64,000 bases of DNA from Mya arenaria (Eukaryota; Mollusca; Bivalvia; Myida; Myidae), in assembly GCF_026914265.1 (NCBI RefSeq), contig NC_069129.1:26333650-26397649 (forward strand). The letters run 5' to 3'. Numbering within the stretch: the stretch's first letter is position 1; every line of letters starts with the position of its first letter. Below, piece after piece: positions 9,301 to 44,531 of the stretch. The notes beneath the pieces were generated by a model. It saw only the letters and a list, made by a program, of their open reading frames with translations, was not told the DNA's origin and ran no database searches. A program made the translations under genes and the position numbers.

Positions 9301-12300
9301 GTATTGAAGGGCAGGGACATCCTCAAGGTCAATGGGTTCTCCTCTCCTGCCTTCCGGGCTTAAGCCCACACTGGAAGCCCGAGATGTCCTGTCATATAAA
9401 TATAAAGTTATTTGCTGAGGTCATGACAAGTTATATGGGCAATGTAAAGGAGCGATCTCTTCAAAGGTCAGTGGGATCCCACTGAGTATCAGTGAGCCAA
9501 GAATCATGAAAAAAAGATTATTAAAGGGGCTAGACACCAGATGGTCCCAAAATCTGAAAATACATTATGTCCACAAGACAAGCCTAGAATTGTCATTACA
9601 AACTAGTATGATGCCTAAAACACATCATTTCACATGATTAAAATATTATTTTGTCGCTGCCTCAGCTCAGTTTACTTGTTTAAAATAATGCTTAATGGTT
9701 TCCCAGTTTATCATGTGTATGTGAAAGCAACATGATTAGTACAGATACAGATATGCTGTTTTTAAATCAACTTGAATTTAAGTAGAGGACAAACCCAGTA
9801 AATTTTGAATTGAAAAAAATACGCAAAAACTGCGAAATATACATGTGTCATAAGAGATGAGTCCATGTTAAAGTAAAGAATATGTATACAGCATAAACAG
9901 TGTATACATGTGTATAGACTGCTTACAAGTGTGTATATACAGAGTATACATGTGTATATACAGCATATATATGTGTATATACAGGGTTTACAATTTTAAA
10001 AAAATGTGTTTATACAGTGTATATATTTGTGTTTACAGCGTATATATGTGTCAACATACCCAGTGGAAGAACCAGACGTATCTCCATCCCGGCCATCCCC
10101 CCGGGGGCGGGAATCTGTCCAACCAATCACCGATGGCCTTCCATCTCCTCCTCCATTTTGATTGGCTGATGAAGAACTGGAGGGTGTAGAGAATGGAGTT
10201 GGTGTGGTGCTGAAGTCTGAAATAACCAATGAAAAGGACTGTTTTATATTCCCTTTGAAGTATTCAACGCTCAGCCAATCACAGGTCCTTATTTCCTTAC
10301 TTTGATTGGCAATCAGAATTGAAACAAATGAAATAGAGTGGGCCTGTCACAAAAGGCATAAAAAACAATAAACAATGCATTACTGAATTATCATTATTTT
10401 AGTATTGTAATCCAAACAAGGACAACCTTCTGTATCCTCCTTTATATTGATTTGGTCAATCTTTTAGCATTAACCATGAGTTATAAGGGCATAAAGCATT
10501 TGACTACATGTATATTATTTGTTTATACACATGTTGTTTGTTCCCTCCTACATATGATTGAAACTCAAAACTTGAATGTTGTTCAATAATACAAAGACCT
10601 TTTTTAAACCAATTTTATCCTTTCTAGCAATGATAAATCACAAAGTACCAGCTAACCTTGTTTTGCTGTGTAAAAGTTAGGATCCTGATGACATCGTATT
10701 CTACTACGCAGACATGTGACATAGTCAGCCAATGTCCTTACAGCCTGAAGCCTCGCCACACCCCCTTCTTTGATTGGTCCACTCAGGAGTGAAAGCAGGT
10801 TCTAAAAATAAACCAGGTTCAAAATTATAACGTTTGCAGTAAAATTGAATTCTAATCCATTTATACAAACAAACAAACATGACATAGTAAACTCATAAAA
10901 GATGGCCACCTACCCTAGTAGTTTTCAATGATATGAAGCATTCAATAGAAAAAATCTGAGAGAATAAACCCCACAATAAGAGCACCTTGCATCACACATT
11001 TAAGGCTTTTTGAGTCTATAATATAAGGAAATTGTCAAATATTTAGTAATTTTCAGTCGTAAAATGTTGATATGGTCTAATTGCTTCTAATTTCACAGAA
11101 GATTTGTTTGATTTATGAACTTTAAGCAGTTACCTTGACAATATTAGGCCTCTGCAGGAAAATTTCAGCAGGAAAGTCTTGGAAGACAACGTCACTTAGA
11201 AACTCGCACGTGCTGACAAGCATTGAGGCCTCCCGACTCTGGAGAGAACTGAAACAAGAATTTTCACAACAGTATGATCAGATGAATAAATGATAAAAAG
11301 ACACAATATGAAAATCATCCAGTCTTTGTAAAAAGACCATGTTTTATATGATACTGCACCAAACATGATGTCTATCAAAAGAGGCAAACCTGAAGCCTTT
11401 TGAACCATATATTGGAGGCATTGACAGGCAAAGGTCTTATGTTCGATTTAAATATGTTGGAAATTGCTTGAGTTTCCAATCCCTTAGTTAGATTTTAAAG
11501 AAAGCACTAACAAAAGAACAATTTTCAAGCATTTCCTAGATTCTAAACGCCAACATAAGAGTGAAATTACAACAAACACCCTTAGCCTTCATTTGTTATT
11601 TCTGATTTCGAGATTCAAGCACTTGCCATTTTGTGGGAAACAATATTAAATTATATGCCCATGCATACTCACTTTTACTGGAGTATGCGTAGGTAGCCAC
11701 TGTTTGCCAAAGAGCAGACTTGACTATTTTCTGCCCAAAACACATGAGCTAAAAATGAAACACTGAATTACTGAATTCCACTCATGCCATTGGGTCTGAT
11801 TTTCCCATCAAGGCCACATACATATGAACACTATTTATATTACTGTAGAACAAACCTGTTGGTGGAGGAGAGAACATGTCTGTCTGTGGGTGTGAGTGAT
11901 AACCATGGAAATATGGTCATTCTAAAACAGCTACTGCCCTCTAAAAAATCAACGATTGTTTGTTGTTAAAAACATCTAGCCAATAACAGTTTCTATTTAA
12001 CCTTATAAGCATGCATGATATAAAGCAACCTTCCCGTAGCAGAAATTTCATAAAAATCCTGCAATTTTCCCCCAAATTATTTTCATTATCATTCAACTGT
12101 TTCACAATCACAAAAAAAAAAACCAATCCCCCACACAGAGACACACATCCCAAGATGATTGGCACCCCTCTCTTTTACCGTAAAAAGCTTTTGAGACAGT
12201 GCTCGATATATTTTATATAAACTTATTTATATTAAACTTCAACATTGTTTTGAAGGAAAAAACATGCATTTTAATCAAACAAAGTGTGTTTATGGTTATA

Positions 12301-15300
12301 TTTGCTAACAGCAGGCTCTTACATACCAAGCCCCAGATCAGCTGCTGTGGGGTGACCCCCGGACCCTGGAGTCATAGGCTGTTGCCCCAGATCTCCCTGA
12401 CACCCCTTAAAGAACCCCAAAGGTGGTTCCCTGTAATCTGGTAGTCTGGCTCCATGCTCAGAAGGGGCATTGGTGCTATGGGCGAGGGAATAATCCTGGG
12501 TATGACGGGTTGCTATGGTATCCACTGTGGTTTCTGCACCCGCTGTCATTCCTGAAAAATAAATACAAGACTTTATATTTCATTCCTGTTTGCGGATTTG
12601 GTCTCATCAAATATACAAACTTTACACTTGAAAACCATTATGCACTATATTTAAGCAGGTAAACTCACAGAAGACAGCTACAAAATATTATTTTAATCAT
12701 GTAAAATAATGCATAATTGGCATCATACTATCCATTGACAATTCTAGGCTTGTTTTGAGAAAATACTGTATTTGCATATTTTGAGACAGTATGCTGTCAA
12801 GTCCTTTTATGGCACTTTCACACCTTATTCCATGAGAAATGAATAACCCAATTCCTTGTTACAATAGGGATATTTGCCTTTGATGCACTGGATAACACTG
12901 AAATGTTTACTCATTGATATCAGGCTTTCATATCAACTAGAATTCTATAACAAATGTACTATAGAAATTGTAACAAGACTGGTGATACCAAACCACTGCA
13001 GGGCAAGCTGGCTTGGACTTCTTTAGAAAACTGTAAACTTTACTGCTGCAGGGCTAGCGGGCTTGGGCTTCAATTAACAACTGTATACTTTACCACTGCA
13101 GACAGGGCTACCGGGCTTGGGCTTCTATCAACAACTATAAACTTTACCAATGTAGGGCTAGCAGGCTTGGGCTTCTTTCAACAATAATAGACTTTTGCCA
13201 TCACATACCTGTATGGTTGTGTCTCTGATAGATACACTCTGGAGCATGGTCCAATCCAATATCAATGTCAGGCAGGCGCATGCAGTTCTCAAGCACCTGA
13301 TCGACAACTGGTTGCAGGGCCGATGTCACATCTTTTCGCAGACTGGTAAGAAACTCAATAGCACCAATGTCTTGTAAGGTTTCTGCACCGGATGTGTGCT
13401 ATATAAATAGAAAATAAATTACCAATAAGATTGAAAATCTCTAGGGATTAGCAATTAAAAGAGTTATGGAAGGGTGCTGCAATCTGTCCTTTTTTAGAAG
13501 CGACCTCTTGTAACAATGGTGAAAAGGATGAAAATCCTTTTTTAATTTATTGAAGTTTGCTTAAGACTGAAGAAAAATAGTTTTGTTTCGAAAAAGAAAA
13601 CTTACAATAAGTTCATCAATACATACAAACTTTACATATTTGGTTGTTCTAACCTACATTTGTAATTTTACTTTAATAAAGCACACTTCCTAACATTTTA
13701 GGACAAATTTATAATGTTAAGCCTGATACAATAAGGCCTAAAAAATCATTTGGTTCAGGTCAGCCGACCCTACCTATGAAAATAAGAGCTGACCATTTTT
13801 ATAGTCAGTTGGTATAAAAAAATCTTCTTCTTTTTAAGTGTGTGTTTTAATATTTAGTTTAAAACCTTTAAAGCTTTATACAGAAGAACAAATCTGTTTC
13901 AATTGTTTTTCTGGAATTTTGACTTCAACTTCTCACATATACTGTACCTCTGAAAGCCTGCAGAGTAGATTGAGGACATCTGAATGCCGGGAAGATTTCG
14001 GGTAGTTGAACCATTCAAGGAGGCGAATAAACAAGTGGCGTTCTTGGACAAGATCAGAGTCACATATAAGCTTGTGCTCTAACTTGGAAAGAATATTCTC
14101 CAAGGCTCGAACACGAATCTCATCCAGATGGTGACCTGCAAACACATTATGATTTAAAAATAAAATCTGTCTTGGTCAAGATATTAGAGACTATATAAGA
14201 ATCCAGATAAAGTTTTACACCAAAATTTGGATCTAATATCTGAGGTGGGAGAAAAAGTTCTCCGCCACACGATAGAACAGGGAGAACTACATTAAAAATT
14301 ATATTTCAAGTTATTGATATTCAAAACTACAATTATAAGAACCGTACAGCATTGATTTTACATTTCTTGTCTGTAACGACGTAAATCTGCAAACGAAAAG
14401 AAGGGGTTTCAAGTTGACTGTACTGTTAATATATTAGGATTGCAAACTACTATTTGAATATTCGACATTTAGATTGAAAAGTTATGACAAGATAAATTTG
14501 CATAAAGTGCATAAATAAATAACTTTTCGTGACTATGATAAATTTTGGGTTTTGAATTAGATAGATTCAATTTCCCTATATTACTTATAGATAGCAGTCA
14601 TTGAAATTAGACTTTTGGATGAACAAACCCAAATTCTTATACTTTTGCTTGGCATCAAAATTTTGAACAAGCCCTGCTATATAAAATTCAGAATTTGAGC
14701 AAGCCCGAAACATATTTTACCAGTGCAGGGCTAGTGTGCTTGTGTTAATTTCGACCACTGAGATAGTTCATTCCGGAGCAGGACTTTTCAACTCCAAGAT
14801 TTTTCAACCCCTTCTCAAAACGAGGACTTTTCAACCCTTAGACTTTTCAACCCCTATTTTAAAGACTTTTCAACCCCTACCTGTTTGGACTTTTCAACCC
14901 CTAAATCAAAGACTTTTCAACCCCTAGTTGAAATATTTTGATAGCCATATTGAAGACTTTTCAACCCCTATATCAAAGACTTTTCAACCCCTATTATAAA
15001 ATAATATTCCGAACATTAACAATGGTACGGTAAAGTAAGATTTTGGTGCCTGGTTACTCCGAACATGCAATTGTTGTATTATTCTGAAGGATATTACATA
15101 TCTCAGCAAATTCACATATATTATGTACAATGTTATTACCATAATTGTGTTCTTTAAATAACAAATTTGAATAATTACAAAAGAAAATGAATCCAAAGAA
15201 GAATTTACGGAACATTCTCCTTTTTGCGCCTGTATTATATATAAAAATGCCAATAAAAACCTGAATTTGAACATTTATAAAACTTTCATTGCTTTTAAAA

Positions 15301-25000: not shown

Positions 25001-26180
25001 AGTGATGCAAAACACAAAATGCAAAAAGGAAAGTATCCAGTGACATGTTGGGACGTTGTATATATATATTCGGATATCAATCATGTGCACGAGCAATCGT
25101 TTTATATGCACGCCAATTTGTGTCATTCAAGAAAAAATGTTGAAGCTGTCTTAGTTTCATAGAATGTTCGAAAAATATGGAGCTATATGTATTTTATGAT
25201 ACTGTTATTTCTTGTAAATACCTACAGTGCAAGTGACAGATTTGCCAAGACTGGCAACACTCAGACATCATTCGGAGAACCGCCATGGATCTGTAATGCT
25301 GCATTAACACTGCCAACCCTTGTGTCACGGCGTCCCATCTTTCTATCGCCTCGGGTTCTAGACAACAAAGCGATCACGCTGGTAATAATTTAACGCTTTT
25401 ATGGGGGTTATTATCGGCACTAACAATTGTACCAAGTTCCTAAGGTCTAGTCTTAGAAAGCTGTAAATGTTTAAGTAGTTAAGTGGACAACTTGGTAAAT
25501 GGTGATTTATTAATGATAAAAAATGAAATTGAGAAGCATCACATTAAAGCCCGATTTTTCAATTTGACTATGGCGGGTTTTTAAAAAGCGTGTTGAAAGT
25601 AATTACAATTTGCTTTTTTCCTACCATTTATTGTTTGGAACAGAACTATATGTAAAAAGTGGATATGAATTGAAATATTCCGACCAAAAGTCATGAAAAT
25701 AGGATAAAAACGTTAGAAAATGAAACGAAAGGAATCAATGAAATTCATGATAACATCTCACCGGATGTGATGTCAAAATTTAAAAGAAAGCAAATTTCAC
25801 TAAAATTATAGTGGCTATGTAGCAATTCTTGCATGAAGAAAAGGCATTGACAATACTTGTGGAAATTGCAATTGCAATTGTCTATTAAATGACAACTACA
25901 ACCTGTCCTGTTTGTCTCCCCCCACCCCCCTGAGCGCCATGTTGGCGAGAATATTCGAACAATTGAATGAAATATGCATCGAAATGACTGTTGATTTGGC
26001 ATTGACATTAGGTGCCTTTGAGACAGTTTTAAGATTATGACCATTCAAAGTGTGAGGGCAGTATGTACAGTTTTCAATCATGTTCAGATGATGACATATA
26101 TTTGCAGATAAACATGTATCCTCTTAGCAGCAGGAAATAAGTAAATTTGAGGTAACTTCAATGACCATGTGTTGTAAACT
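25001..26180. other. Intergenic, no supported gene
   Basis: A plus-strand open stretch at 25187-25393 sits between AG at 25226 and a GTAATA, but resembles nothing I know. It may be antisense debris of the neighbouring transposon. The remainder is AT-rich. Confidence 0.4.
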
Positions 26181-26250
26181 TGACCTTTGATCTCAAAATC
26201 CTTAGAGTCATCTAAAGCTTCTGTTCAACCCCATAAGCTCTTCTGGCCTT

Positions 26251-26949: not shown

Positions 26950-28680
26950 CAATTCTTACCATATACACATCCCCAGCCTATACACCATCCCCATCCCATT
27001 CACCATTTCCATCCAATACACAATCTTAACCTGATACAGCATCCCCACCCAATACACCATCCCCATCCAATTCACCATTTCCATCCAATACACTACCCTA
27101 ACCTCATACAGCATCCCCACTCAATACAGCATCCCCAACCCATACACTTTCCCACCCCATACACCATCCCCACCCCATACACCATCCCCAACCCATACAC
27201 CATCCCCAACCCATACACCATCCCCAACCCATACACCATCCCCAACCCATACACCATCCCCAACCCATACACCATCCCCAACCCATACACCATCCCCACC
27301 CCATACACCATCCCCAACCCATACACCATCCCCAACCCATACACCATCCCCAACCCATACACCATCCCCAACCCATACACCATCCCTACCCCATACACCA
27401 TCCCCAACCCATACACCATCCCCAACCCATACACCATCCCTACCCATACACCATCCCCAACCCATACACCATCCCCACCCCATACACCATCCCCACCCCA
27501 TACACCATCCCCAACCCATACACCATCCCCAACCCATACACCATCCCCAACCCATACACCATCCCTACCCCATACACCATCCCCAACCCATACACCATCC
27601 CCAACCCATACACCATCCCCAACCCATACACCATCCCTACCCCATACATCATCCCCACCCCATGCACCATCCCCAACCCATACACCATCCCCACCCCATG
27701 CACAATTCCCATAACATACCCACATACATCATTAGAAACCCTATACAGCATCCCTATCCAAACACCTTTCCCATCCCATACACCTTCCCCACGCTATACA
27801 CCATTCCATTACAATCCAAGATCCCCAAACATACATTATTCCAACCCCAAATACCATCCTCATCCAAAAAAAAACATTCTCATCCAATACACCTTCCCCA
27901 ACCCATACACCATCCTCATCCCATATACCTTCCTCACTAAATATAGCATTCTCACCCCACAAGCCATCCCCATACCATACACTATCCCCTCACCCATACA
28001 CCATTCCCACCAAATACACTATCCCCACCCAATCCAACATCCTTACACATACACCAACGTCATTACACCATCCTCATCACATACACCATCCTCATCCCAT
28101 ACATAATCCTTATCACATACACCATCCTCATCTCTTACACCATCCACATCACATACATCATCCTCACTCATCACATACAAATACACCATCCTCACTCCAT
28201 ACACCATTCCAATACAATCCAAGATCCCCAACCATACACCATCACAACTACAAATACCATCCTCATCCAAAACACCATTCTCACCCAATACACTATCCCC
28301 GACCCAATACAGCATCCCCACCCCATATACCATTCCCACTCAATACACTATCCCCTCACTCAATACACCATCCCCACCTCATACACCATCCCCACCTCAT
28401 ACACCATCCCCACCCCATACACCATCAATACCCAATACACCATCCCCACCCCATACACCATCCCCACCTCATACACCATCCCCACCTCATACACCATCCT
28501 CAGCCCATACACAATCCCCACCCTATACACCATCCAATCCCCACACACCATCCCCAGCTGATCCATCATCCTCACCAAATGTAGCATCCCCACCCCATCC
28601 ACCATCCTCACCATCCCAAACCTATATAATACACCATACCCACCCTATTCATCATCCCCACCCCATGCCCCTACTTTTCA
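26950..28680. repeat. Minisatellite of an 18-bp unit, about 1.7 kb
   Basis: The unit CCATACACCATCCCCAAC and close variants (CACC, TACC) repeat nearly without interruption from 27140 to 27710, with more diverged flanks to 28680. It has a strict purine/pyrimidine bias (C, A and T on the plus strand, almost no G). Because 18 is a multiple of three, it produces long meaningless open frames in several frames. Its right end lies 20 bases from the donor of the RTTN-like exon at 28699. Confidence 0.95.
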
Positions 28681-28698: not shown

Positions 28699-28790
28699 CC
28701 CATGTCTAGCTTGTTCATCAAACAGCAACAACGCTAGGATATGAGACACCTCGTAGCATGTTCTTTCATCATTTGAAAATAGTTGCGTAA
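28699..28790 (-). pseudogene. RTTN-like exon B4
   Basis: Acceptor TTTTCCAG, donor GTAAGG. It encodes VTQLFSNDERTCYEVSHILA and LLLFDEQARHG, matching the rotatin GALFCLLLFDE block. No breaks in this exon. No following RTTN exon was found in 24-28.6 kb. Confidence 0.78.
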
Positions 28791-29157
28791 CTGGAAAACA
28801 GAAAACAAGAGTATGTATATGTTTGAATTAAACAAGAGGAATAATTCATGAAAAATTTGAACCAGTGTAATGGGTCTTCCCAAACATCTGCTCTATGTCT
28901 AGTTTTCTGTTCACACATAAACAACTCTCAAGTACAGAACCTGGTTTTGGACAATTTTGCATGGCTTAAAACTTGCGAAGCAATCATTAGGTCATTTGTG
29001 TTTTATTTTTGTTCAAACGAAAATATCATAAGGATTTCAAATTTCATTCTGACTAATTCTAGAAAATTTAACCCTTGAAAAACAAGAACAAGAGTTCCAC
29101 ATGCATGCATAAAGGCGTTTTTTACTGTCAAAAAGGGCATAAATCAACTATAATTTA

Positions 29158-30101
29158 TAGGGATGGCAACAAGTACCCGAGTACTCGAGTACTCGATCGA
29201 TCGTCCGAGTACTCGAGTACCAAATCACTACTCGAGTACTCGGATTTTTTTTAAAAAATGTATAAAAATCACCAAATACACGATTTACAGACGAAGTCAC
29301 AGAACTGGTTAGTTGCCAAGAGGACAATTTACGGTCCCTCTAATCCCCGCTGTGTACACAATAAACCCTAAAAAATTAGTTGAGAGTTGCAAACGGTCAA
29401 CAAAGGGCCCCTATTTCCAATTAGCACTGATTAGCGAAGTTTAGATAGAGAAACTTTCACCTAAATAATTCTATTGTTTACCAATTAGAGACCTTTCACC
29501 AAATAATGGACGCTAACGAGCGAACGAGTATCGACTGTTACGAGCATTGATTTCTTAATGGGCGTATTTTAACTATTTTTGCAATGATTATCACAATTGA
29601 TGTCTTAAATGAAGAATTATGAATATTAATGAGGTAAACAACAATAATACAGTACAAAGTAATTATTTTTATGTATGCTATTAATTTTCGTTCATTGTAA
29701 TTCTGATGTTCATTATAAATCTCGATTTATAATAATATCTAGACGCTCGAATAAAATCCGGGTTAAACTTCCCAGCTATTTTGTAGCTCATTTGCAGTGC
29801 ATACTAATTAATAAAATCATTAAAATGAAATGAAAAAGACAAAATTAAAAGCCTGAAACAACATTTGTTTTCCTTTTATTTAATTTTCTATTGAAGTTCA
29901 TAATGAAAGTCTAATTTAAAGATAAAAAATGACCAATAATACGACCAACGCACAATATACGTCATGAAAGATACATGTATACACAATCTTGTCTTTCCCG
30001 AAAACGAATTCATTTTTTCGGAGTAATCGAGTACCCGAGTACTCGATCGAAAGATTGTCCGAGTACTCGAGTACCAATTTTACTACTTGTTGCCATCCCT
30101 A
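29158..30101. mobile_element. Non-autonomous hAT-like element rich in CTCGAGTACTCG
   Basis: 944 bases, termini TAGGGATGGCAACAAGTA and its imperfect inverse (TACTACTTGTTGCCATCCCTA read on the plus strand in two parts), flanked by a perfect 8-bp duplication ATAATTTA at 29150-29157 and 30102-30109. Palindromic GAGTACTCGAGTACTCG clusters lie just inside both ends. No transposase. It sits in the intron between RTTN-like exons B3 and B4. Confidence 0.88.
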
Positions 30102-30269
30102 ATAATTTAAGTTACATATACATGTATACATAAAACTGGTAATAAGTATGTCATGTGAACATTTTGGATGTTTTTCGTATAACCACGCCAACAATGATGA
30201 TGACACCAACACTATTTTTGAAAAACAGACAAGCTTACAATCGACAGTAAGAAAAGTGTTACCAATAAA

Positions 30270-30548
30270 ACCTCTTACCTTGAACAAGAGTCAGGTATAA
30301 GCTAGTATCGTGTGCCAGTCTGTGTCTCAGGGAGAAGTCATTATAATGTATGCAATAAAACTGCTTACCTCTGACGAGTGTCAGGTACAAGCTAGTATCG
30401 TGTGCCAGTCTGTGTCTCAGGGAGAAGTCATTATAATGTATGAAATAAAACTGCTTACCTCTGACGAGTGTCAGGTACAAGCTGGTAGCATGTGCCAATC
30501 TGTGTCTCAGGGAGTAGCCATTAAAATGTATGCAATAAACTGCTTACC
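30270..30548 (-). repeat. 90-bp tandem duplication of an exon end and its splice donor
   Basis: Three extra copies of the 3' part of exon B3 plus the start of its intron follow the exon. Donor-type GTAAGC/GTAAGA sites sit at exon ends 30548, 30459, 30369 and 30279 (spacings 89, 90, 90). The last three copies read through in one open frame, with RLAHDTSLYLTLVRG repeated. The first junction is 1 base short and breaks the frame. Confidence 0.88.
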
Positions 30549-30668
30549 TCTGGCAAGTGTCAGGTTCAAGCTGGTATCATGTGCCAATCTGTGTCTCAGG
30601 GAGTAGTCATTATGAACTATGCTTCTCAGAATGTATAAACAACCAGGGAGGTATGCCTGCATGGCGCT
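30548..30668 (-). pseudogene. RTTN-like exon B3
   Basis: Acceptor TTTTTTCAG at 30669, donor GTAAGC at 30547. It encodes SAMQAYLPGCLYILRSIVHN and LRHRLAHDTSLNLTLAR, matching the rotatin CLVQPCLTLLRKVLCGDP region. It ends in phase 1, compatible with exon B4. Its 3' half and donor are tandemly repeated downstream (30270-30548). Confidence 0.78.
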
Positions 30669-30688
30669 CTGAAAAAATCCTTGTAATA

Positions 30689-30899
30689 CAGTCCAAACCC
30701 GCTATGTCAACGTCAGATATCTCAACTTTCCAGTTGTGACGACTTCTTTCATCGGACCCGAATTTATTCCTTCTTATTCTATATAAATTAAAACTGCTTG
30801 TGTTAAATTTTCTATCTCGATTTTTTCGCTATGTCGACCTCCTTTTTCAGCCCCTGTGGTTGAATTTCACATATTTTCTTTGTTATTTATGTCGAACTG
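30689..30899. mobile_element. Pogo/Tigger-like MITE with TA target duplication
   Basis: Starts CAGTCCAAACCCGCTATGTC and ends ATTTATGTCGAACTG, flanked by TA on both sides. Internal ATGTCGAC and ATCTCGA repeats. It lies only 20 bases upstream of the acceptor of RTTN-like exon B3, where the missing exon would be expected. Confidence 0.6.
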
Positions 30900-31189
30900 T
30901 AGATCAAGTTTTTATTGTTTTATATCAACTTGTTGTTTATTTTATTATCATTTGTCGCTACTTTTCTATTAAGAATATACAACTTATGTTATCATGTTGT
31001 CAATGAAATGATTACATAAGTTGTATAATCTTTAATATGACATTTAATATCCTTCCGGGCACTTAAGCTCATTTCCTTACAAGGGGCAAACTTGCATACA
31101 AGGGTTTAATTCACCCGTTTTGTATTTGCCTTTATCTGCAAAGGTAAATCTTGCCACATAATGTGACTATTGCTATTCTCAATACCAAC

Positions 31190-31290
31190 CTTGCAGTATA
31201 ATGGCAAGTTGGTCCACGGCAGATTTTTTTCACCCCAGGGTCAACTGTGAGGGATGTAAATATCTCATTCACCTTCTGCAACCCATCCAC
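31190..31290 (-). pseudogene. RTTN-like exon B2 with homopolymer frameshift
   Basis: Acceptor CTTTACAG, donor GTTGGT. It reads VDGLQKVNEIFTSLTVDPGV, matching the rotatin VEKVYEIFTSDDVD block. Seven A residues (31224-31230 on this strand) then shift the frame. With six, the next residues would be KKSAVDQLAIILQ, matching RKSAAEQLAVIMQ. The extra base could be a mutation or a sequencing error in the homopolymer. Confidence 0.78.
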
Positions 31291-32389
31291 CTGTAAAGCA
31301 TTACAAGACACTATAAGGATATTTATCATGAATGTAAAACATTCAACAATCCCTTTTTTAGAGACTAGCATGACAGTCAGCCTGTGAGTTCCTGGCATGT
31401 ATAATTCCAAGTCAGTTAGACTAAGAGCTATCACTGGGTGTGATTTTTTTTAATTTTTGTATGATTTTCTGTAAAATCATAATGACAAAAGAATGGCTCA
31501 CTCGATTCATTCATTCTGATTTTACCTAATATGTTTAAACTATTACAAAATAATAACAGTTATATATGCCAAACTTTATCATTATGAATCGTAAGATAAT
31601 TATGCACTGTGCTTTTTTACCAATTTAGGGCCAGTTTAGTTTGGCCACATAATTAATCTCAAAATGTATACTTTGTCATACTGTAAGTGAAAATAAAATT
31701 CCCATGTCTTTTTATTTATTTTTTAAAATTTATTTCTCAAACATTTTGACCCCATCACCTTTTTTTTGTGTGGAACAGGGAGGGGTTGACATTAACTATA
31801 TTTCGCAAGGATTCCAAAGAGGCTCCTACATATCAATAAAAGTGTCCCTTCTTGCAATCAAAGACACTGTCACTGTTACTGAAGACAAAGAAATTCAAGT
31901 TCATCTCTTATGATGCCCATTGTTATTGAGAATAATTTAACATTTCAGTATCCATTATCAAAACAATTGACAAAAATATTGACTTAAAAAAACTTTTATC
32001 CACCAAATAGGCAATCATTTGACTAATTGTTTTAATCAATTTGTACTCGGATATCCTTCTTACAGTAGTAGCATACTAATGACATTGACGAGCTATTAAA
32101 AAAACTTGCACTCTCTAATTTCGTCAATTTATTGATCAAGTTTTCAATATTGCTCTCTCAGATCAATACTTTTGACAATGTCCTATGTTGTCAATAATAA
32201 AATCCAAATCATGGATTGGATGCTTTAAAGAGACTCACTCATGTTTTGGTACCAAATTATTTCCCCTGGCAATGCATCTGAAAACACTATTTTACTCTTT
32301 AATACTCTCATTGTATAAAAACAAGAACTGTAACAGAGACAGCGCTCTCGACTATTCCGCCGCTTTTCAGTGTAAGGATTGAAAAGTTT

Positions 32390-33020
32390 TGGCGAAACAT
32401 GCATGGATCACTGTTAGATTAGATTTCAATGCAATACATGATGTGCTGAGATATTAACATTAATGTGGTTACATGGAAAATTTTAACCAGAATTTTTAAA
32501 TCTAATAAATAAAGGGCCATTATTTGCAAAATACAGTTATCTCACTTGGTTATTCAATTAGGTTGGGTGGTTGAATACCATATTTTATAAAGTCTCAATG
32601 CAATACATCACGTAGTTGCTGAGATAATATCCTGTGTGTGCTAACATGAAAGACCTTAACCAGAATTTCTAAGTCGCATAATAAAGGGGCAAAAATTATA
32701 TAACATGAAAGATAGAGTTATCTTATTTGATTAAAGAAGAAGGTTAAATGGTTGGGAGCCTGTGTGCAAAGTTTCAATGCAATACATGATGTATTCAATG
32801 AGGTTTTGCCAAAAATATGGTTACATGCAAAACCTTAACCAGAATTTCTATGTTGAATAAAAAAGGGGCCAATATTTGAATTTAATGCAAAGTAGAGTTA
32901 TCTAACTTGGTAAATTAAGTAGGCTGGATGGTTGAGTACCATTGTATAAAGTCTCAATGCAATACCTCAAGTAGTTGCTGAGATATTATCCTGTGTGTGC
33001 ATGCATGCAAAACCTTAACC
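32390..33020. repeat. Tandem repeat, about 180-200 bp, about three and a half units
   Basis: Units share TCAATGCAATACATGATG, TGCTGAGATATTATCCTGTG, AAAACCTTAACCAGAATTTC and AAAGGGGC in the same order. No coding signal. Confidence 0.75.
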
Positions 33021-33869
33021 AAGGTGTGAGGCCGACGCAGACGCTTGAGTGAGTAGTATAGCTCTCCATATTCTTTGAATAGTCGAGCGAAAAATACACT
33101 AAAAATATTACTTTTACATTTACAGTATTCTTGTCAGTTTTATTATTTTTGGAAGAGTGCTTTCTACCTCAAGTAAGTTACTTAAATCAAGAAAGAAAAT
33201 TATCCACTAAATCACAGAGGTTGCATGAAAGCTTGAGTATTTGTTTTCAAGTTCATTATTGTATTATATTTAGAGAAAACCTTAAAAATACTTGTTAAAA
33301 TATATAATTTCGAGATCTTTGACTTAAATAAAATTAAATTGAAAACATGAATCATTTTGATCATTCATGCATTAGAGCTGTAAGCATTCGATGTATAAAT
33401 CTCGGTCATACCCTAATTCTTAAATCTAGAATGTATTCCTACACTTTAAATTTGTTTCAAGGATATCAATTTACAAGGTATAATAGCCGAATGCAGTAAT
33501 TTACTGTGCTACAGATAAAATACTGCTTTTTTAAAAGCAAAATATGAGACACCTTATTATTATGACAATAATATTGAACTTTTTCTTCTTCTGCTTTAGA
33601 TTTGCATTGCTATATCAATTGATAAATCACAAATATCTTTTGGTTTATATAAGACCGATTTCATATCAGGCTTAGTTTCTTTTTCCACTAGTGTATCATT
33701 AAACTTCCTTGTTGAGAAATTATCACGCAAAGCACTATGGGATATGTATACAGTAGTCAAGGGGATAACGAGGCTTGAGATTATGATTGACATGGATATT
33801 TAAATCTTGTTGGAAATTGTGACATTTTACAGACAAATTGCACGGAATACTTAAACTTATTGGTTTAAA
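33021..33869. other. 5' flank of the TRIM-like gene
   Basis: AT-rich sequence with no exon detected. Any promoter or non-coding first exon of the TRIM-like gene would lie here. A TATATAA-like string is at about 33645, but its role is unproven. Confidence 0.35.
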
Positions 33870-36800
33870 ATGGCTTCAAAGCACACAAAGTCCTTCAAAG
33901 ACTCAATGTCAATGGCATCTGATTTGATCCATGACTTTGTCTGCTCTCCCTGTCAAGAAGACAAGCTTAATACTGAGGCCAAGTATTTCTGTGGGGACTG
34001 CTCAAAATACTATTGTGACAAGTGCCTGACTTTTCACTCCAAAATCCACAAACAGCATACTGTGTTGGGCCGTAAGGATGTGGACAAGTGGGTGGGGCAG
34101 GGTGATGCCCTCATTTCATGTGACTTTCACCCTGGTAAGGTCATTGAACTTCTGTGTGAGGACCATGCTGAGATGTGTTGCCACCTCTGTGTGTCCTTGA
34201 ATCACAGGTTAGTGATAATATTATGACTTATTTGACTGCATCTGTTTAATTGACACCAAGATTTCTTGGGATGAATAATTTAATCACTCAATGTTGACTA
34301 CTCTCATGATTTGAGAGGATACTAGAGCTATATGAACTGATCAACAACTAATTTTCAGTAAGGGTGAAAGGCCTAAAACTGTCCATTATGTCAGAGAAAG
34401 AACATACCGAGGCACGCATTTGGAAGGTTTTTTTTCCACTGACATAATGGACAGTTTGAGGTGTTTCACTAACTTAAAACAAGTTAACACAGAGGTTAAA
34501 ATCATGAATTTCATGGTGCTATTGTTAACTTATTGGACACTGTTATTTACCATTTGAAAAGATACTAATCATGCAAATCTCTTAGGCAAAGCAAAATATT
34601 TTTGCGCTAATTTACGTGTACATGTATATAAATTGTAAATAATTGTTTGGTTATCATTTAAAATAATCATTTTTAGAATACAACCTTTATTTACAGCTAA
34701 TGAAATTTCAGATCTAGGCAATCATTAAGTACTAGGCTTATGTGGATTAATCATTAAGAAATTCAACTTTTGCGGATGTTTAAAGATCAGCTTACTGCCA
34801 CTTATCCGAAACACAATCCCTGTGTCAGATTTTGCGTTGACAGTGTCAATCAATGAGGTTGTAATATAAGTCGGTAACATGACCTGAATTAAAATCTCAT
34901 GATTAAGAAGAGCTCGTTCGCAACGCTCTATATGGCTATTCTTAATCATTAAGATTTAATTAATCTAACTTTTACTGAAAATTCAACTTCTACAGACATA
35001 AAACAAGTGCAGACTGTGTTTTCATTGTTTATTATTCACGTAATACGGAAACCTTTTTGTTTGCATCCCTATAATGTTGTGAATATAGCTCTTGTAGCAA
35101 ATGTGTAACAATTGTTTCCATAAGTAAATTACTACAATTTTGACATCTCTTAGATGTTATAAAACAGCAAAGTCAATTGACACAGACGAAATAGCCCTCA
35201 AGGATATCCCCTGGTATTTGGGGATGGGGTATGACAGACACTTTTTGTGTATTAAAAATTCATATTTATTAACTGACTAAGCCATTTTGGACTGAAATTT
35301 ACAAAAAGAGGATTTTTTAAACCAATTTTTTAGTCCTTTTCATTTACTTAATTCCATCCGACAAGTCCAAATTGATCCAGACCAGCAAAATTGTCACTTT
35401 TAGAAGCCCTGTAAACAATCATCTCTTCTGAATTGACATTCTGTATGCGCTTTGATTGTGTACATAAACTTCATTCAAAGCTGAAATGTTGATTAACTTT
35501 TATCAGGTGAAATATAACAACTAAACGTTATTAAATACAAATGTAGCTTCAAAATTTATAGCTATATAGGACACTGTGTGACATATAAATGACACATAAA
35601 ACTTTTCTAGATTCTATAATGGTTAATACAGTCACACATTTACAATTATTACTTCCTTTAAAACAGGATGTGCAGAAGCATCAGCTTGATCTCAGACCTG
35701 GCTAAGGGCGTATACGAGATGGCCGATTTCAGGCTGCTTCCATCTAAGGTTGCTAAGGTAACAACAAGTCTGAACCAGGTCAGAGAGGTCAGAAAGAAGA
35801 ACCAAGTCTCCTTAAAGGCTTGTTGCAAGTACATGCTGACAAAGATCAAGGACCTGAGGAAGGCACTGAACCAGCTGCTAGATGAGCTGGAGAAGAGGAC
35901 AGTGAAACAGATGGACAGCGTCCTGGCTGACCTGGATGTCACACTACAGAAGGATATTGACTCCTGCACACATATTTATGACCAGCTCAATGCCATGATG
36001 GACACCATCCAAGCCCAGGGCAAGGACAACGAGCCAAGCTCCTACATTGGCTTCAGGAAGTGTGAAGAGAAGATGGCAAAAGCCAACAGCCTGCTCCAGG
36101 AGATGTCCACAAAACCTGAATTGACCGCCACTTTCAAGCCTGATACCAGAGTTACACAACTGCTGTCTGATATGCATTTATTAGGCAAGCTCCAAGGTAA
36201 TCAGGAAACACTGACAGGCCATCAAATGTCTGACATGAAGTCTTCTGAACAGATCAGGCCATTGCATGATATATCATGGGTTTACACAGTTAAAAACAAA
36301 TCAACCTTCAATGTGAAAATCAAGCAAGATACATTTACCTGTATTATTATGGGTATTACAGAACTTCCATCAGGAGAGATTATTCTTGTAGATAACAACA
36401 ATAACAGAGTGAAAATATTGAACAGGGAGTATAAGGTAATAGCCCAATATGATGTCCCTCAAAAGCCCCGGGACATCTGTCATGTGACTGGTAATCAGGT
36501 GGCTGTAGCAGTAGACTGTGATCATCCTGTCAGGCATGAGGTCCACTTTCTCACTGTGACAGCTGGCACCATCAAGATGACCAGGAAGTTCTCAGTTGAT
36601 CATCACTGCAGGTCCATCATGCACCATGGGAACCAGCTGTATGTGGGTTCCATGACTGCCCTGTACCTCTACACCACAGACGGCAAGCTAGTCAAGAAAA
36701 TGTATGAAGACACATCAAGAGGGATGACAGTGGCTAAATTTGCTATAAACCAAGATGGCAAGAGGATATACATCTGTGACTTTTACAATAACAAAATCAT

Positions 36801-37080
36801 TACAATTAACAACAATGGCAGCATTCTAGCCACACTGCAGGATCCAGACATTATAGGGCCAAATAGTGTACATGTGAGTGAGGGTGGACATGTGTTTGTG
36901 TGTTCATGGGACTCCAACACAGTGTTGCAGATTGACCAGGAAGGCAAGAAGAAGCTGGTCACACTGGTCAGGGGGGAAGAGGGCATCTTCTATCCAAAGG
37001 CAGTTTGGTACAGCACCCACACTTGCAGACTGATTGTGGGTGGACATCAAAATGACATTCTGGTGATGGAACTCCAGTAG
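33870..37080 (+). CDS. TRIM-like protein: two B-boxes, coiled coil, beta-propeller (no RING)
   Basis: Two exons, 33870-34207 and 35667-37080, with donor GTTAGT and acceptor TTTAAAACAG, give 583 residues. Residues 25-63 form a B-box-type zinc site (CSPC, CGDC, CDKC, H-KQH) and residues 84-112 a second (CDFH, CEDH, CCHLC, NH). Residues about 130-250 are a Lys/Glu/Leu-rich coiled coil. Residues about 310-583 form an NHL-like propeller (GEIILVDNNNNRVKILN, IYICDFYNNKIITI, VFVCSWDSNTVLQI). There is no RING upstream, so ubiquitin ligase activity cannot be assumed. Such RING-less B-box/NHL proteins resemble TRIM2/3/56/71-type proteins and are expanded in bivalves. The splice junction restores the second B-box (NHRMC). 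It is nested on the opposite strand of the RTTN-like fragment. Confidence 0.9.
34356..34475. repeat. Hairpin MITE-like palindrome in the TRIM-like gene intron
   Basis: The left arm AAACTGTCCATTATGTCAG pairs with the right arm CTGACATAATGGACAGTTT, separated by about 45 bases. Outer arms (GTGAAAGGCCT and AGGTGTTTCAC) pair more loosely. Confidence 0.75.
34690..34985. repeat. Imperfect inverted repeat with TTAATCATTAAG ends
   Basis: ATTAATCATTAAGAAATTCAAC near 34745 (read in two halves) and CTTAATCATTAAGATTTAAT near 34935 are related and partly inverted. It may be a small transposon relic inside the TRIM-like gene intron. The boundaries are unclear. Confidence 0.35.
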
Positions 37081-38512
37081 AGAGACAGTCAGTAAGTAAA
37101 AAAAAAGTTGGAAATAGTTGATGAAGTGAAGGAAGGAAAACATTGAGAGAGACAGAACATCAGATGCAAACCAGTAATATTACATATTGTAACTGTAAGT
37201 ACTTGAATGTGTTAATCATATTTAACTATGTGTAATTTAATTCATAATAATCTGTATGCTAATCTAGATTTTACTAATATGACTTTCAAAATACATTTCT
37301 AGATAAACAAGAAAAAACACACAGAAATAGTGTAAATATATAGTAAGTATGTGTGTTTGTTTATATTTAAAAATTGATATCTGTAATTGTTAATACCTTC
37401 TTTTAATTAACATTTGTATCATGCAAAACCTCATGAAATGATTCAATATTATCATAAATCAAACAGCACAATTTAGTATCACCAAAATCAAATATTCTAA
37501 TTAAGTATAATCAATAGTTATGTTAGCTGATGTATATATTATTATCATTTAAATGTCATTACTGTTAAAATACAATACATTTAAGTAAGATTTTTTAAAT
37601 TTACATGTGTATAATGCAATATATCTCATGAAATGATTTAATATTATCAAAAACAAATAAAGTGATTAACGCTAGTATCACCAAAAGAAATATCCTGATC
37701 TAGTATCCTAAACATCTTATACAGTAATAAATTGGTTTTGAAATGTATATTATTAGCTTAACTGACCCTTGAAAATAACATTGACCCAGAATAAGGCCAC
37801 ACTGTTTATTGTCATGGTTATTGTCAATTCCATTTCTCGACACCTGTCTTGGTATAGTGATCTGATTACAATACTCTCACAAGCAATAGTTCAAGAGATT
37901 GGCAGTGTCTTTTTTACCATTTTGGGAAGAGGCTAAGGGCTTTTTTCATTGAAAAAATGTGCCATTTTGACTATATTTAGGAATGCCAGTTAATTGCTTT
38001 AAAGTTAGACATAATAAGATTGTTTTCTTTGAGAATACATCAACTTTTCCGTAAAAAAACATACGTGGACCCAATTTTTTTTTTAAATCAACTTTTATTT
38101 TTACATTTTGGAAAAAGTATATGTTTTAACTTTGGAAGTGTGGCAGAAATTATTGGTCAGCATATTTTTCACTTGCTTGGTTATTTCTGGTTTCAGGAAA
38201 GGTTTTCAGTATACCAAGTAAACCTTAGATTTACATGAAACAAACTAGAGCTATCACAGAATTAATGAATGCCCCCAAAGACAGGGCGAGGCTGGAACTT
38301 GAGGACACAAATGCAACTCAATTATATCCCCAGCATATACCAAACTTAAGGCTGAATGAAGGTTTACCTTGTTATAAGGAAATGCTTATTTCGTGTCAAT
38401 ATCTTGACAGTTTTTCTTAACTGATGATAACAGTGATCACACCAAAGCTTGAACATTATATTATTCCCGCCCCCCCCCCCCCCCTAAAAAACAGACCAAC
38501 AACAAATCTTAC
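37081..38512. other. 3' flank of the TRIM-like gene; no further gene seen
   Basis: AT-rich. Probably contains the 3' UTR; several AATAAA-like strings exist (for example about 37655). A pure C tract of 15 or more lies at about 38468-38484, next to RTTN-like exon B1. Confidence 0.45.
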
Positions 38513-38681
38513 CTGAAACACAGACCGCCCTAAATCGTTATCTACTGAATGTGGTGTTTAAACTATCAGAAGATTTGCAAGGTCAGTAAGGTTCAGCTCC
38601 GAAAATATGGGTAACCGACGCACACCACCTTCCTCATTAGATAGGTACCAGGATAAGCGCTTCAGTGCCTCTGATCGTACC
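38513..38681 (-). pseudogene. RTTN-like exon B1 with in-frame stop
   Basis: Acceptor CGCATACAG at 38682 and donor GTAAGA at 38512. It encodes VRSEALKRLSWYLSNEEGG, then LNLTDLANLLIV, then TAA at 38560-38558, then LGRSVFQ in the same frame. It matches the rotatin SVRSLALKLLAFHLTSEEG block. Phase 0 at the donor joins correctly to exon B2. Confidence 0.75.
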
Positions 38682-39547: not shown

Positions 39548-41690
39548 CAGTGTGGACATACCACGTGTTTTGTGACGTCACATTTAGTTATAACGTGAAG
39601 TAAAATACCGCTCGACTCAAAAAGGATTATAGCTGTAAGTGTGTTATTTTTATATCATTTTTTATAAAACCTAGCGGAGGCTAAGCGGGAAAATGTACAC
39701 TACACTCGGTTACTAAGCGGCATGTTGAGTAATTTATAGTTTTTTCAAAAATCGTGGGCAAATGCTGAAAATGGACAAAATATTGTTTGTTATGACGAGA
39801 AGCAAATTACGTTTCTGGTCCAAAAAGTTGTTTATATATATATTCACCATGTTTGCCTTAAAACAGAAGTCTCGGAATGCATATTCTATCCTCAGGATAT
39901 ATACATACCTACAAATAAGGCATTCAGTATATAGAAATATCAAATGTTTGTATTTTGTTATGACGAAAAGCAAAACCTATTTGGTTATGACGAAAAGCAG
40001 TTTTTAGGAACAATTGCCGACCTCTCTCCATCTTGCAATGAGCCCACTTTGAACCTGTTTTGCAATGAGTATCGGTTATGTTTTACAGCAATTAAAAGAC
40101 ATATACAGATATGACAACTATATGTCACTGCTAAGTATGTCACTCAATTTTATTGATCCGAAAACTTCATGATTCCAACAACACATTGCATGTTCTTCAT
40201 AAGCTTGTCTGGTATTTTTTGACAAAAATGGAGATTATGTGTCGTCAGTAGGTTAGAAGTGCAACTTGATTAAATGCATATTGATAGACATATGTTAAAG
40301 TGGATACATAGTGATAAACCTTGATGTCGAACAACTGAAGCAAAACCATGTTTATCGGCACAATAAACATTGCCTCCTAAGCCACAATCTTTTCAATAAC
40401 CTTTTTATCTTTAAAGTTATGATACCTAACTAAGATGTCGATCGAAAAATATGTTTTTCGCCACATGCTGGACGCATACACTCAAAATTTTAAGAAAACG
40501 TCCACTTACCAGGCAAAAGTTGTTCCTGAATCAGTACTTTGTATTCTAAATCCGCCATTTTGTTTGTCATGAAACATTTTTCTCACTTAATGTTTGCATG
40601 AAACGAAATTACGTCCTCCCCCTTGTTTTTTCTTTGCTCGCCTGCTGCGCTTCCCCACGGCAAGGGGAGGTCGCATCATTCTGAAAAAAGAAAACATTTT
40701 GTTTGATTAAATCATTGACCCTCTTTATTGTGCCGATAAACATGGTTTTGCTTCAGTTGTTCGACATCTTCATTGTGCCGATAAACATGGTTTTGCTTCA
40801 AAGTCTATCACTGAAGTATCCACTTTAACATATGTCTATCAATATGCATTTAATCAAGTTTGATAATGAAAAAAGACAAAATGGCAACGTTTACTTCAAT
40901 GAACGTTTGTTTAACTTACATTCAAATGTTTTAAGTGTTTTAATTGAAACACAATTAATGTGAACTACATGTAGGTGCACTTCTAACCTACTGACGACAC
41001 ATAATCTCCATTTTTGTCAAAAAATACCAGACAAGCTTATGAAGAACATGCAACGTGTTGTTGGAATCATGACGTTTTCTGATCAATAAATTGAGTGACA
41101 TACTTAACAGTGACATGTAGTTGTCATATATGTATATGTCTTTTAATTGCTGTAAAACATAACCGATACTCATTGCAAAACAGGTTCAAAGTGGGCTCAT
41201 TGCAAGATGGAGAGAGGTCGGCAATTGTTCCTAAAAACTGCTTTTCGTCATAACCAAATAAGTTTTGCTTTTCGTCATAACAAAATACAAACATTTGGTA
41301 TTTCTATATACTGAATGCCTTATTTGTAAGTATGTATAAATCCTGAGGATAGAATATGCATTCCGAGACTTCCGTTTTAAGGCAAACATGGTGAATATAT
41401 ATATAAACAACTTTTTGGACCAGAAACGTAATTTGCTTCTCGTCATAACAAACAATATTTTGCCCATTTTCAGCATTTGCCCACGATTTTTGAAAAAACT
41501 ATAAATTACTCATCATGCCGCTTAGTAACCGAGTGTAGTGTACATTTTTCAGCTTAGCCTCCGCTAAGTTTTATAAAAATTGATATAAAAATAACACACT
41601 TACAACTTTAATCCTTTTTGAGTCGAGCGGTATTTTACTTCACGTTATAACTAAATCTGACGTCACAAACCACGTGGTATGTCCACACTG
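39548..41690. mobile_element. Foldback element with inverted arms of about 0.8 kb or more
   Basis: The left arm runs from 39548 (CAGTGTGGACATACCACGTG) to about 40380; the right arm is its inverse from about 40720 to 41690 (ending ATGTCCACACTG). Both flanks carry AATAA (39543-39547, 41691-41695), a possible 5-bp target duplication. The arms are nearly identical except for small changes and a 40-base local duplication of the GTGCCGATAAACATGG block near 40730-40790. TTATGACGAAAAGCA motifs recur three times per arm. The mirrored 81-residue frames at 39762 plus and 41231 minus are by-products of the inverted repeat. No transposase. Confidence 0.85.
40381..40720 (-). other. Unique centre of the foldback element with a possible captured first exon
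   Basis: On the minus strand, AACAAAATGGCGGATTTAG gives a good start-codon context. The frame MADLEYKVLIQEQLLPG then runs into GTAAGTGG, a strong donor. The neighbouring sequence is GC-richer than its surroundings. It could be exon 1 of a transposase or of a captured host gene. I cannot identify the protein, and no downstream exon is seen. Confidence 0.35.
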
Positions 41691-41695
41691 AATAA

Positions 41696-42470
41696 TGACA
41701 TTGAGCACGCGTATGTTACAAACATCGATGTCAGAAAAGGAGCGATTCATTTCGGTGATGTAGTATATAATTGCTGGTTAACACAATCTGAATATCATAC
41801 GAAAATGTCATCAGATGTATACATGTGCTGTCATTTTGTTTTAAATGTTTTATGTTGTTTTGATAAAGAAGTATAATAACGAATTATTTGTCAATTATTA
41901 AACAATAAATCAACAAATATTCTTATATACGAAAGATAACTCAAACCGAGTTTATCGTATTGGTAACATGTAAGCGACATTGCAATTTTCACAACTTAGT
42001 ATGTCAAGTATCCAGGGGTTTAATTTGAATAAACATGGTAGATAACCAAAAGACAATGTTACACACCAAATATTTAAGCACTAGGCCTCATAGTATTTGC
42101 CAAAAAAGTTTTGTAGTTTTTCCTTTAGGTTGCCATGGCAACCTGAGTTCTTCATGGAATTCATTTCTTTATACAAATTTGAAAAAGTACCAACCATGGA
42201 TCGTTCCTTTGTGCTCAGGTGAGCTAAAAAAAAGTGAAGTGTTGTTTGAAGTTTAGTAATAAACTTGAAACATCTTACAAAATAAAATTAGCATTATAAA
42301 TATATAAAGCATTATACCTGCAAAACCGGAAGTGCCCTGGCGAGTTCTTTTGACATTGTTCATTTCTATATGGTGGCATCGAAAAATGTTACCCATATTA
42401 AATCCCTTGCTCTTTATGTTCATACACTCATGTCAGCTATAGATAACACCTAATTTTGTTAACAAAGATA
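41696..42470. other. Intergenic, no gene seen
   Basis: Short open frames at 41679-41876 and 42035-42256 lack similarity and splice support. Confidence 0.4.
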
Positions 42471-42479
42471 CACAACTCT

Positions 42480-42590
42480 TATTTAGTTACATATATGCAT
42501 TTTGTTATATTTGATTTGCATTGTAACATGAATTATGGGCCTCCAGCCTTTCATTGAATAAACTTTCGTTCGTTCGTTCGCTCATCAGTA
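42480..42590 (+). mobile_element. Non-LTR retroelement-like 3' tail
   Basis: TTGAATAAACTTTCGTTCG followed by GTTC microrepeats is the kind of short-repeat tail left at the 3' end of 5'-truncated LINE or SINE copies. No coding remnant was identified. Confidence 0.4.
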
Positions 42591-42710
42591 ACTGACTCTA
42601 AAGAAGTAAGTCGCCAACCCGCTGGCTGTGATGACGACCTCAGAGATAAAACGAGTTAGATGGACACTTGGACACTACAACGGCCAAGATCTTAATTGAA
42701 GTGACCCCCT

Positions 42711-44531
42711 GGCCCCAATTTCTCGAAACTTCTTAAGTCTCTTATAACAGGATTAAGTTAAACCCACTATTTTTGTCTCAATTTTTTGCGTTGTATATAC
42801 TCCTTTAAATGTTTTAGAAATTAAGATAGGAATTATCGTTCCGATTATCACAATAAACCATTTTTTATTTATCAAAATTCAATTAAAGTATATATTTTGG
42901 CTGATTGAAATAAGTAACTTAAGTAGCATTGCAACATGACTTTTTTTTAATTAATTTGACATGCAAAAACCTTACATTTCTATTAATATACATATTTTGT
43001 GAGTATAAAAATGCAAGAATTATTGAAATATCTCATTTCAATGTGAATATATAGCCATTTGTATGCACCCACCCTTCACCGCCATTAAAATGCACTAACT
43101 GAAAAGTCACGAAATCCTGACCCAAGTTTTTATTTTCATTGTAAGGCATGTAGAACTGCTCAAAAGGCTTTTTTACTACATGCAAACATAATAACTGAAT
43201 AAAACACAGGAAATAAACAAACTAAAATAAATAAACAGTTTCGTTACAAACTGAAACGAGTTGTACATTAATTGCAATTACCGGTACAGTTTTTATTTAT
43301 TATACTGCTATTTAATAATGTGATATTGATGAAACCAATTATTATATTAATATTATATTATATTTAATAATGATTGTCAATTTATGAGTGAATTCCTTCT
43401 TTTTGCTGTTGTCTCATGTTAAATGGTTTATAAATACTAATTTGTGATTGATTTTAAACATGATTCCCATTTGTAAGTTATAATCACATATAAACATCAA
43501 CTCTATATTTAAATAGTACATTTACATTACTTTAAGGCATAAAAAAAGAAATGGGAAACATGCTTATTAATTTTCCAAATAAGCTTATGTTATTTGTGTT
43601 TAAAAAATAATCAAAATGAAGCCTTATTTGCATTCACTTAATATGTTGCCTTACTGTTTCAATTTATTTTCTACATTATGTAATATGTGATTTATATTTC
43701 ATATAACATGACCCATGATTGGAATAAAATTGATCTTATCTTATCTTTTCTTATTACACAAAACAACGTTTCAGTTAGAAAACTACTGATGTAACCTAAA
43801 TCTGGCATTTTTCTCGTTCTTTATTTTATATAAACACGTCTTACACACTGTAAACATATTTGAGAACGAAACGGTACGAAACTGGGGACGAACACAAACT
43901 TTGTGAAAAAACATTGTTTATTTTACAATTATTTAAAGAATATACATAAAATGTATTCATTCTTAATGTTTACACCTATTTACACAAGGTATACTTGAAG
44001 TTTGAAGCTGTCAGCAACTGTTTCATGCATTAGCCATTAAACATCTGACTAGGTGAAAACTAGTTTCATTTCGTGGCAGCCATTTTGGAATTTTGTTTAC
44101 ATTTTGGCAGTCTACAAATGGTCTAAGAACGTTTATAGTCCAATTGTTTTCGTATCAAAAGTGATAAAAAACTATGAGAGACCCCTCCCATGCTTAAAAA
44201 CAAACCAAATAATCCTTTGTACTTGCCTTAAAACATGAAAAAAACGTTTAATCAAATTTTCACTTTCGTTTTTCTTTTAGAAAAACCACGTTGTCAGTGA
44301 ACTTTGACTGATTTCCAAAATATTTCATCATCTAATTAACTATAAATAGCCGCATGGTTCTCCGCAAATGTTGATATATGTGTTTTAAAGAGTGTATAAA
44401 ACCGGTACCAATATTGGGTCGCCATCCGTGAAAAATTAATATTCATGAGATTCATAAAGGGAGACTACTACAATCGACTTGGCATCGCTACCTTAAGCCT
44501 GTTGAGCTTAAGAAGTTTCGAGAAATCGGGG
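42711..44531. mobile_element. Harbinger-like element bounded by GGCCCCAATTTCTCGAAA ends
   Basis: The left end GGCCCCAATTTCTCGAAA, then CTTCTTAAG, at about 42711 pairs with an inverted right end CTTAAGAAGTTTCGAGAAAT, then CGGGGCC, ending at about 44532. The flanking bases are CTG on the left and CAG on the right. The interior has no transposase frame. A LINE/SINE-like tail with TTATC microrepeats is at 43690-43755. The same terminus begins each unit of the array that starts at 44535, so the two are related. Confidence 0.65.
43690..43755 (+). mobile_element. Short-repeat tail (TTATC) of a truncated retroelement
   Basis: GGAATAAAATTGATCTTATC followed by TTATC-type microrepeats resembles a LINE/SINE 3' end nested in the Harbinger-like element. 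Confidence 0.4.

Follow-up and report, generated by a model that had tools for sequence, protein, structure and literature searches.

The window, a 64 kb stretch of Mya arenaria DNA (C8:26333650-26397649), carries on its minus strand parts of two copies of rotatin (RTTN), a centriole gene, which we refer to as copy W and copy Y (Table 1; positions given without a contig are those of the window). It was examined together with its flanks as a stitched 264 kb region (C8:26203650-26467649, 0 N), which we queried with the full-length rotatin of Mactra antiquata (P0053, 2242 aa) and with Mya proteins, and genome searches were made in the 1.216-Gb, 18-contig assembly. Exons 1-3 of copy W, when joined, contain an RTTN_N domain (E 8.7e-29), which marks the N terminus of rotatin. 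Neither W nor Y has a match past about residue 1012 in the 264 kb, so neither amounts there to a full-length rotatin of ~2200 residues. A PDB search with the joined rotatin exons gave nothing useful (one match at E 0.86), and Rfam at gathering scores gave no match in the window.

Table 1. Rotatin exons and associated features in and beside the window
Feature	Position	Strand	Evidence
Copy W (partial RTTN), exons 1-14	18349 to 187	-	Matches residues 1-689 of Mactra rotatin P0053
Copy W remainder: exons 15-17, uA, uC, uR, uD	C8:26333476-26310552, left of the window	-	Search of the stitched 264 kb
Unit junction	25620-26231	.	Left: 5' flank of Z; right: 3' flank of Z
Copy Y, exon uD	28790-28699	-	P0053 residues 980-1008, E 5.5e-6; frame open, AG/GT boundaries
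Copy Y, uR and extra partial copies of the uR 3' end in a 90-bp tandem repeat (30263-30613)	30263-30653	-	Sequence repeats
Copy Y, exon uR	~30653-30549	-	P0053 residues 945-979, E 9.3e-6
Copy Y, exon uC	31290-31190	-	P0053 residues 870-895, E 6.4e-5
B-box/NHL (TRIM-like) coding segments	33855-37080	+	Antisense inside the uA-uC intron of Y
Copy Y, exon uA	38681-38513	-	P0053 residues 775-874, E 3.4e-17
Copy Y, exon-16 remnant and flanking intron	42318-42713	-	90.5% to unit W over 42580-42713

The earlier note had described middle RTTN exons upstream of the RTTN start codon on the same strand, four exons at 38681-28699 against a start at 18349, with exons 1-14 covering roughly the first 680 residues; both descriptions hold, and the outer coordinates, 38681 and 28699, fall on exact AG/GT boundaries in the sequence. 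The four exons (uA, uC, uR and uD) are collinear and span residues ~775-1010 of bivalve rotatin, the tail they form lies ~10 kb upstream of the W start codon, and their order was identical when the Tegillarca protein P0039 and the protein P0040 served as queries. Judged from these alignments, four ordered rotatin matches on one strand are not chance. A stretch at 38385-38257 was rejected as an exon and is probably intron; the ends of the predicted proteins P0002, P0005 and P0008 read through overlapping or adjacent DNA.

Whether the gene to the left has its own four exons was the check proposed in that note, and all four are present, 3-23 kb beyond the window edge (uA at C8:26330293, uC at 26314172, uR at 26312007 and uD at 26310656). 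As the downstream copy W thus owns a separate uA, uC, uR and uD, the exons at 38681-28699 are the tail of the preceding unit, Y. The gene starting at 18349, which had been taken as the main RTTN, is itself one more partial unit: its exon 15, lying at C8:26333476-26333345 beside the left edge of the window, contains a stop codon, and its uR contains one too. The same tail-to-head arrangement, on one strand and with the end of each unit before the start of the next, as in tandem partial duplication, occurs three times in the 264 kb, with spacers of 10.3 kb from Y to W, 7.0 kb from W to V and 9.9 kb from V to Z, the last measured from the uR of V (its uD was not found) to exon 1 of Z. The units are uneven: in the 264 kb the only exons of V to be found were exon 1, uC and uR, Y is likewise reduced, and unit X, further upstream, consists of exons 16, 17, uA, uC, uR and uD, some of them broken.

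The DNA between and within the exons is also shared among units. At the unit junction the left side matches blocks in 26243601-26252974, in the 5' flank of Z, and a 121-bp block at 83% may extend this match to 26167, while the right side matches 26206774-26209302, in the 3' flank of Z; these two flanks stand ~34 kb apart in Z itself. In this comparison, made with unit Z alone, the window junction has the look of a tandem junction, with the 3' flank of a unit joined to the 5' flank. Introns of W align with Z over 9882-14589 at 94.3%, the tail of Y aligns with that of Z over 30353-35023 at 93.9%, and long non-repeat blocks between units are mostly 76-94% alike (one 590-bp block is at 68%). DNA similar to the antisense TRIM-like segments is found in units W, Z, X and V as well. 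Since noncoding DNA was copied along with the exons, the units are genomic duplications and not retrocopies.

Copy Y is disabled by several lesions. Its uA contains an in-frame TAA (38560-38558), and in its uC an A run (31230-31224) has one base too many, a +1 frameshift. Its exon 16 is a degraded remnant (42356-42318), and the place at which exon 17 would be expected is taken up by a segment with inverted arms (39548-41690); in the 264 kb no exon 17 of Y was found, nor any of its exons 1-15. The arms are ~718 bp each and 96.8% alike, and the segment resembles a mobile element. The +1 occurs at the same uC position in unit Z and is absent from W and V, whilst X is broken differently there. With blocks under 80% identity or under 150 bp set aside, so that the values are floors, Y diverges by 6.1% from Z (12,384 bases), 8.7% from W, 9.5% from V and 9.9% from X. 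We rejected derivation of Y from the tail of W itself, as Y is nearer to Z than to W. A lesion common to Y and Z, combined with their separate divergence, indicates that an already damaged tail was copied, which speaks against a misplaced allele.

The array extends well outside the window. A genome search with exon 2, in which all 11 first-look candidates were scored, gave at least ten matches, every one on C8: the minus strand has seven, from 25933196 to 26347597 and spaced 39-108 kb apart, and the plus strand has three, from 27765939 to 27852913. The uA region matched at least eight places among the matches listed, which did not include the window's own uA. Rotatin thus forms two clusters of opposite strand on C8, at 25.87-26.43 Mb and 27.76-27.92 Mb, each ending in a 3' half. 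Our own grouping of the matches gives 14 units, including fragments without exon 2 (B, V, X and Y); beyond the 264 kb the array is known from exon matches and 3.2-kb pieces, and the grouping into units there is inferred. For the 3' half of rotatin, taken as P0077 from about residue 125, 42 of 117 candidates were scored, so that remote fragments could be missed; among these it was seen in just two places, one on the minus strand (25.873-25.899 Mb, ~0.44 Mb from the window) and one on the plus strand (27.893-27.918 Mb, ~1.5 Mb away), in each case after the last 5' half of the cluster; 15 of 43 matches to it have a stop inside the matched stretch (an intron edge or a lesion). On the minus strand it is directly preceded, in correct order, by the unit at 25.914-25.933 Mb. 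The restriction of the 3' half to the cluster ends, among the candidates scored, marks the other units as 5'-half repeats, and both clusters are expected to finish with a putative complete RTTN gene.

We conclude that the window exons are very probably the eroded, decaying tail of a neighbouring unit in a tandem array of RTTN 5' halves. The 5' half of RTTN, from exon 1 to about residue 1010, would have been repeated in tandem in Mya arenaria, most likely by unequal exchange, each repeat carrying with it the TRIM-like antisense intron DNA and a spacer of ~7-10 kb. Repetition of a 5' half places the end of each unit just upstream of the start of the next, and the exons at 38681-28699 would accordingly be the eroded 3' end of the unit preceding the one that starts at 18349. 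We infer that most partial copies yield no useful protein. The array itself is strongly supported, nothing having been found against it. The earlier note had weighed a partial tandem duplication with a decaying remnant against misassembly: the evidence supports duplication with decay and calls for no misassembly, and the partial tandem copying turns out to be an array in which exon 2 matches ten times.

A possibility compatible with this conclusion, although we consider it unlikely, is that the minus-strand array is real while the cluster on the plus strand (27.76-27.92 Mb) represents an alternate haplotype that escaped purging and was placed ~2 Mb off. The 3'-half models P0077 and P0081, which presumably stem from one cluster each, align over 1123 columns with 10 mismatches and 102 gap positions, and the DNA of units A and p3 diverges by 2.0%, as two haplotypes might; p3, however, is no nearer to A than to E (1.5%) or F (1.8%), and neither these divergences nor the likeness of the two proteins is decisive in either direction.

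Far less probable is that scaffolding or haplotype misplacement put DNA from a second allele, or from this gene itself, ahead of the start codon. Heterozygosity is high in bivalves, which would favour such an error, and some units are only 1.4-2.0% apart. The assembly, taken to be the one in the available text of PMC10663159, was built from PacBio reads with FALCON-Unzip, Hi-C scaffolding, PBJelly gap filling and haplotig purging (1.22 Gb in 17 scaffolds, contig N50 3.4 Mb), and the last three steps likewise count in favour of such an error. Against this, the Y tail stands 6.1-9.9% (floors) from four other tails, which we judge to be more than allelic, it has private lesions in addition to the one common to unit Z, and seven minus-strand copies of exon 2 are too many for two haplotypes. 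The 264 kb contain 0 N, in an assembly with the contig N50 given above in that text. That the upstream exons form part of an alternative or trans-spliced transcript of a split RTTN gene is hardly credible and was rejected: the models P0077 and P0081 do begin at uC, where P0001 stops, as if one gene had been cut in two, but the window uA has a stop, its uC a frameshift and no 3' half adjoins the window exons, and, with the unit at 25.914-25.933 Mb immediately followed by a 3' half in the proper order, the cut models look to be artefacts of annotation.

Some findings within the array of RTTN 5' halves speak against simple decay. We compared 11 of exons 2-13 (without exon 5) among ten copies (A, B, C, E, F, W, Z, p1, p2 and p3), a set that excludes D, X, Y and V and in which some exons are missing for some copies, and found no internal stops in those exons; exon 10 of copy Z has lost a single base, and a TAG is flagged in the uA of copy B. 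Among eight copies dN/dS was at most 0.25 in 25 of 28 pairs, the other three giving 0.36, 0.40 and 0.76. Divergence of nine units from W was 0.9-3.4% in exons and 2.9-9.6% in noncoding DNA, the exons being about 2 to 3.4 times less diverged, whilst X differed from W by 27.9% over 470 bases that included no exon bases. Pooled over eight partial copies, private changes comprised 20 nonsynonymous and 23 synonymous ones, which puts the nonsynonymous fraction under the neutral share (binomial 1.8e-5), a share assumed to be 0.767 from site counts with transition bias uncorrected; by copy, the synonymous and nonsynonymous counts were 7 and 1 in F and 0 and 4 in W. The tree of the copies was poorly resolved, with supports of 23-87. 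Plain pseudogene decay alone would not predict stop-free exons together with mostly low dN/dS. The exon constraint may have been inherited from before the duplications or maintained through conversion by the intact gene, or alternatively some half-genes may be working. We think it improbable that several 5'-half copies are working genes and that Mya makes truncated N-terminal rotatins under selection, which, if true, would add a clam-specific layer of dosage or interference to centriole building in an animal subject to a transmissible cancer whose genome is unstable.

An array of RTTN 5' halves accounts for the many Mya models labelled 'RTTN-like, partial' and is a caution against treating each of them as a complete gene. 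Protein searches, one of which scored 7,996 candidates, returned ten rotatin-like ids for Mya, each encoded on one 75.8-Mb contig, and the protein cluster P0038 has 17 member sequences. In Mactra antiquata the exon order and sequence of P0053 are the same as in the repeated half of Mya, and yet P0053 is one long protein model where Mya has ten partial ones. The C1q-domain and IAP families of bivalves appear to be families of whole genes, unlike the Mya array, in which repetition is confined to the 5' half and each cluster has a single 3' half. As described in the available parts of PMC6835236 and PMC7831173, those families expanded through tandem duplication, as the Mya array appears to have done. 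The closer likeness is to the partial tandem gene duplications studied in Drosophila yakuba, where, as far as the available text of PMC5460883 goes, part of a gene is copied and unit ends come to lie upstream of unit starts; the Mya array differs in being repeated about ten times or more, in a centriole gene of a bivalve, and in including TRIM-like intron DNA. The kind of event, partial tandem duplication with decay, is ordinary, and its scale and the gene concerned are unusual. A literature search for rotatin and bivalve as whole words returned no paper, and neither rotatin nor RTTN occurs in the main text of PMC10663159 so far as that text is available. If some of the partial copies are expressed, they would offer a natural test of the N-terminal half of rotatin acting alone.

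Several repeats accompany the exons. The 90-bp repeat at 30263-30613 is built from the 3' end of uR and the DNA beyond it, including a GT that resembles the uR 5' splice site, and strings of partial uR copies are likewise present in units W, Z, X and V. Just 3' of the uD of Y lies an 18-bp VNTR of ~95 copies (26963-28666), with similar repeats 3' of uD in W and Z. In the spacer, 24318-24097 contains a hAT dimerisation-like sequence (E 0.012, under the Pfam cut-off) within 24454-24097, and the Mya model P0038 terminates in spacer-like sequence (24454-24380). Just upstream of the eroded front of Y, a 4.1-kb unit is repeated in tandem about six times (24.6 kb), from 44535 to the window end at 64000 and on to C8:26402760, its copies being 98.9-99.7% identical to the query copy and an ORF in it encoding a Myb/SANT-like domain (PF13873, E 1.5e-5). 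The array with its VNTRs and this 4.1-kb satellite is a good spot in which to seek copy-number change.
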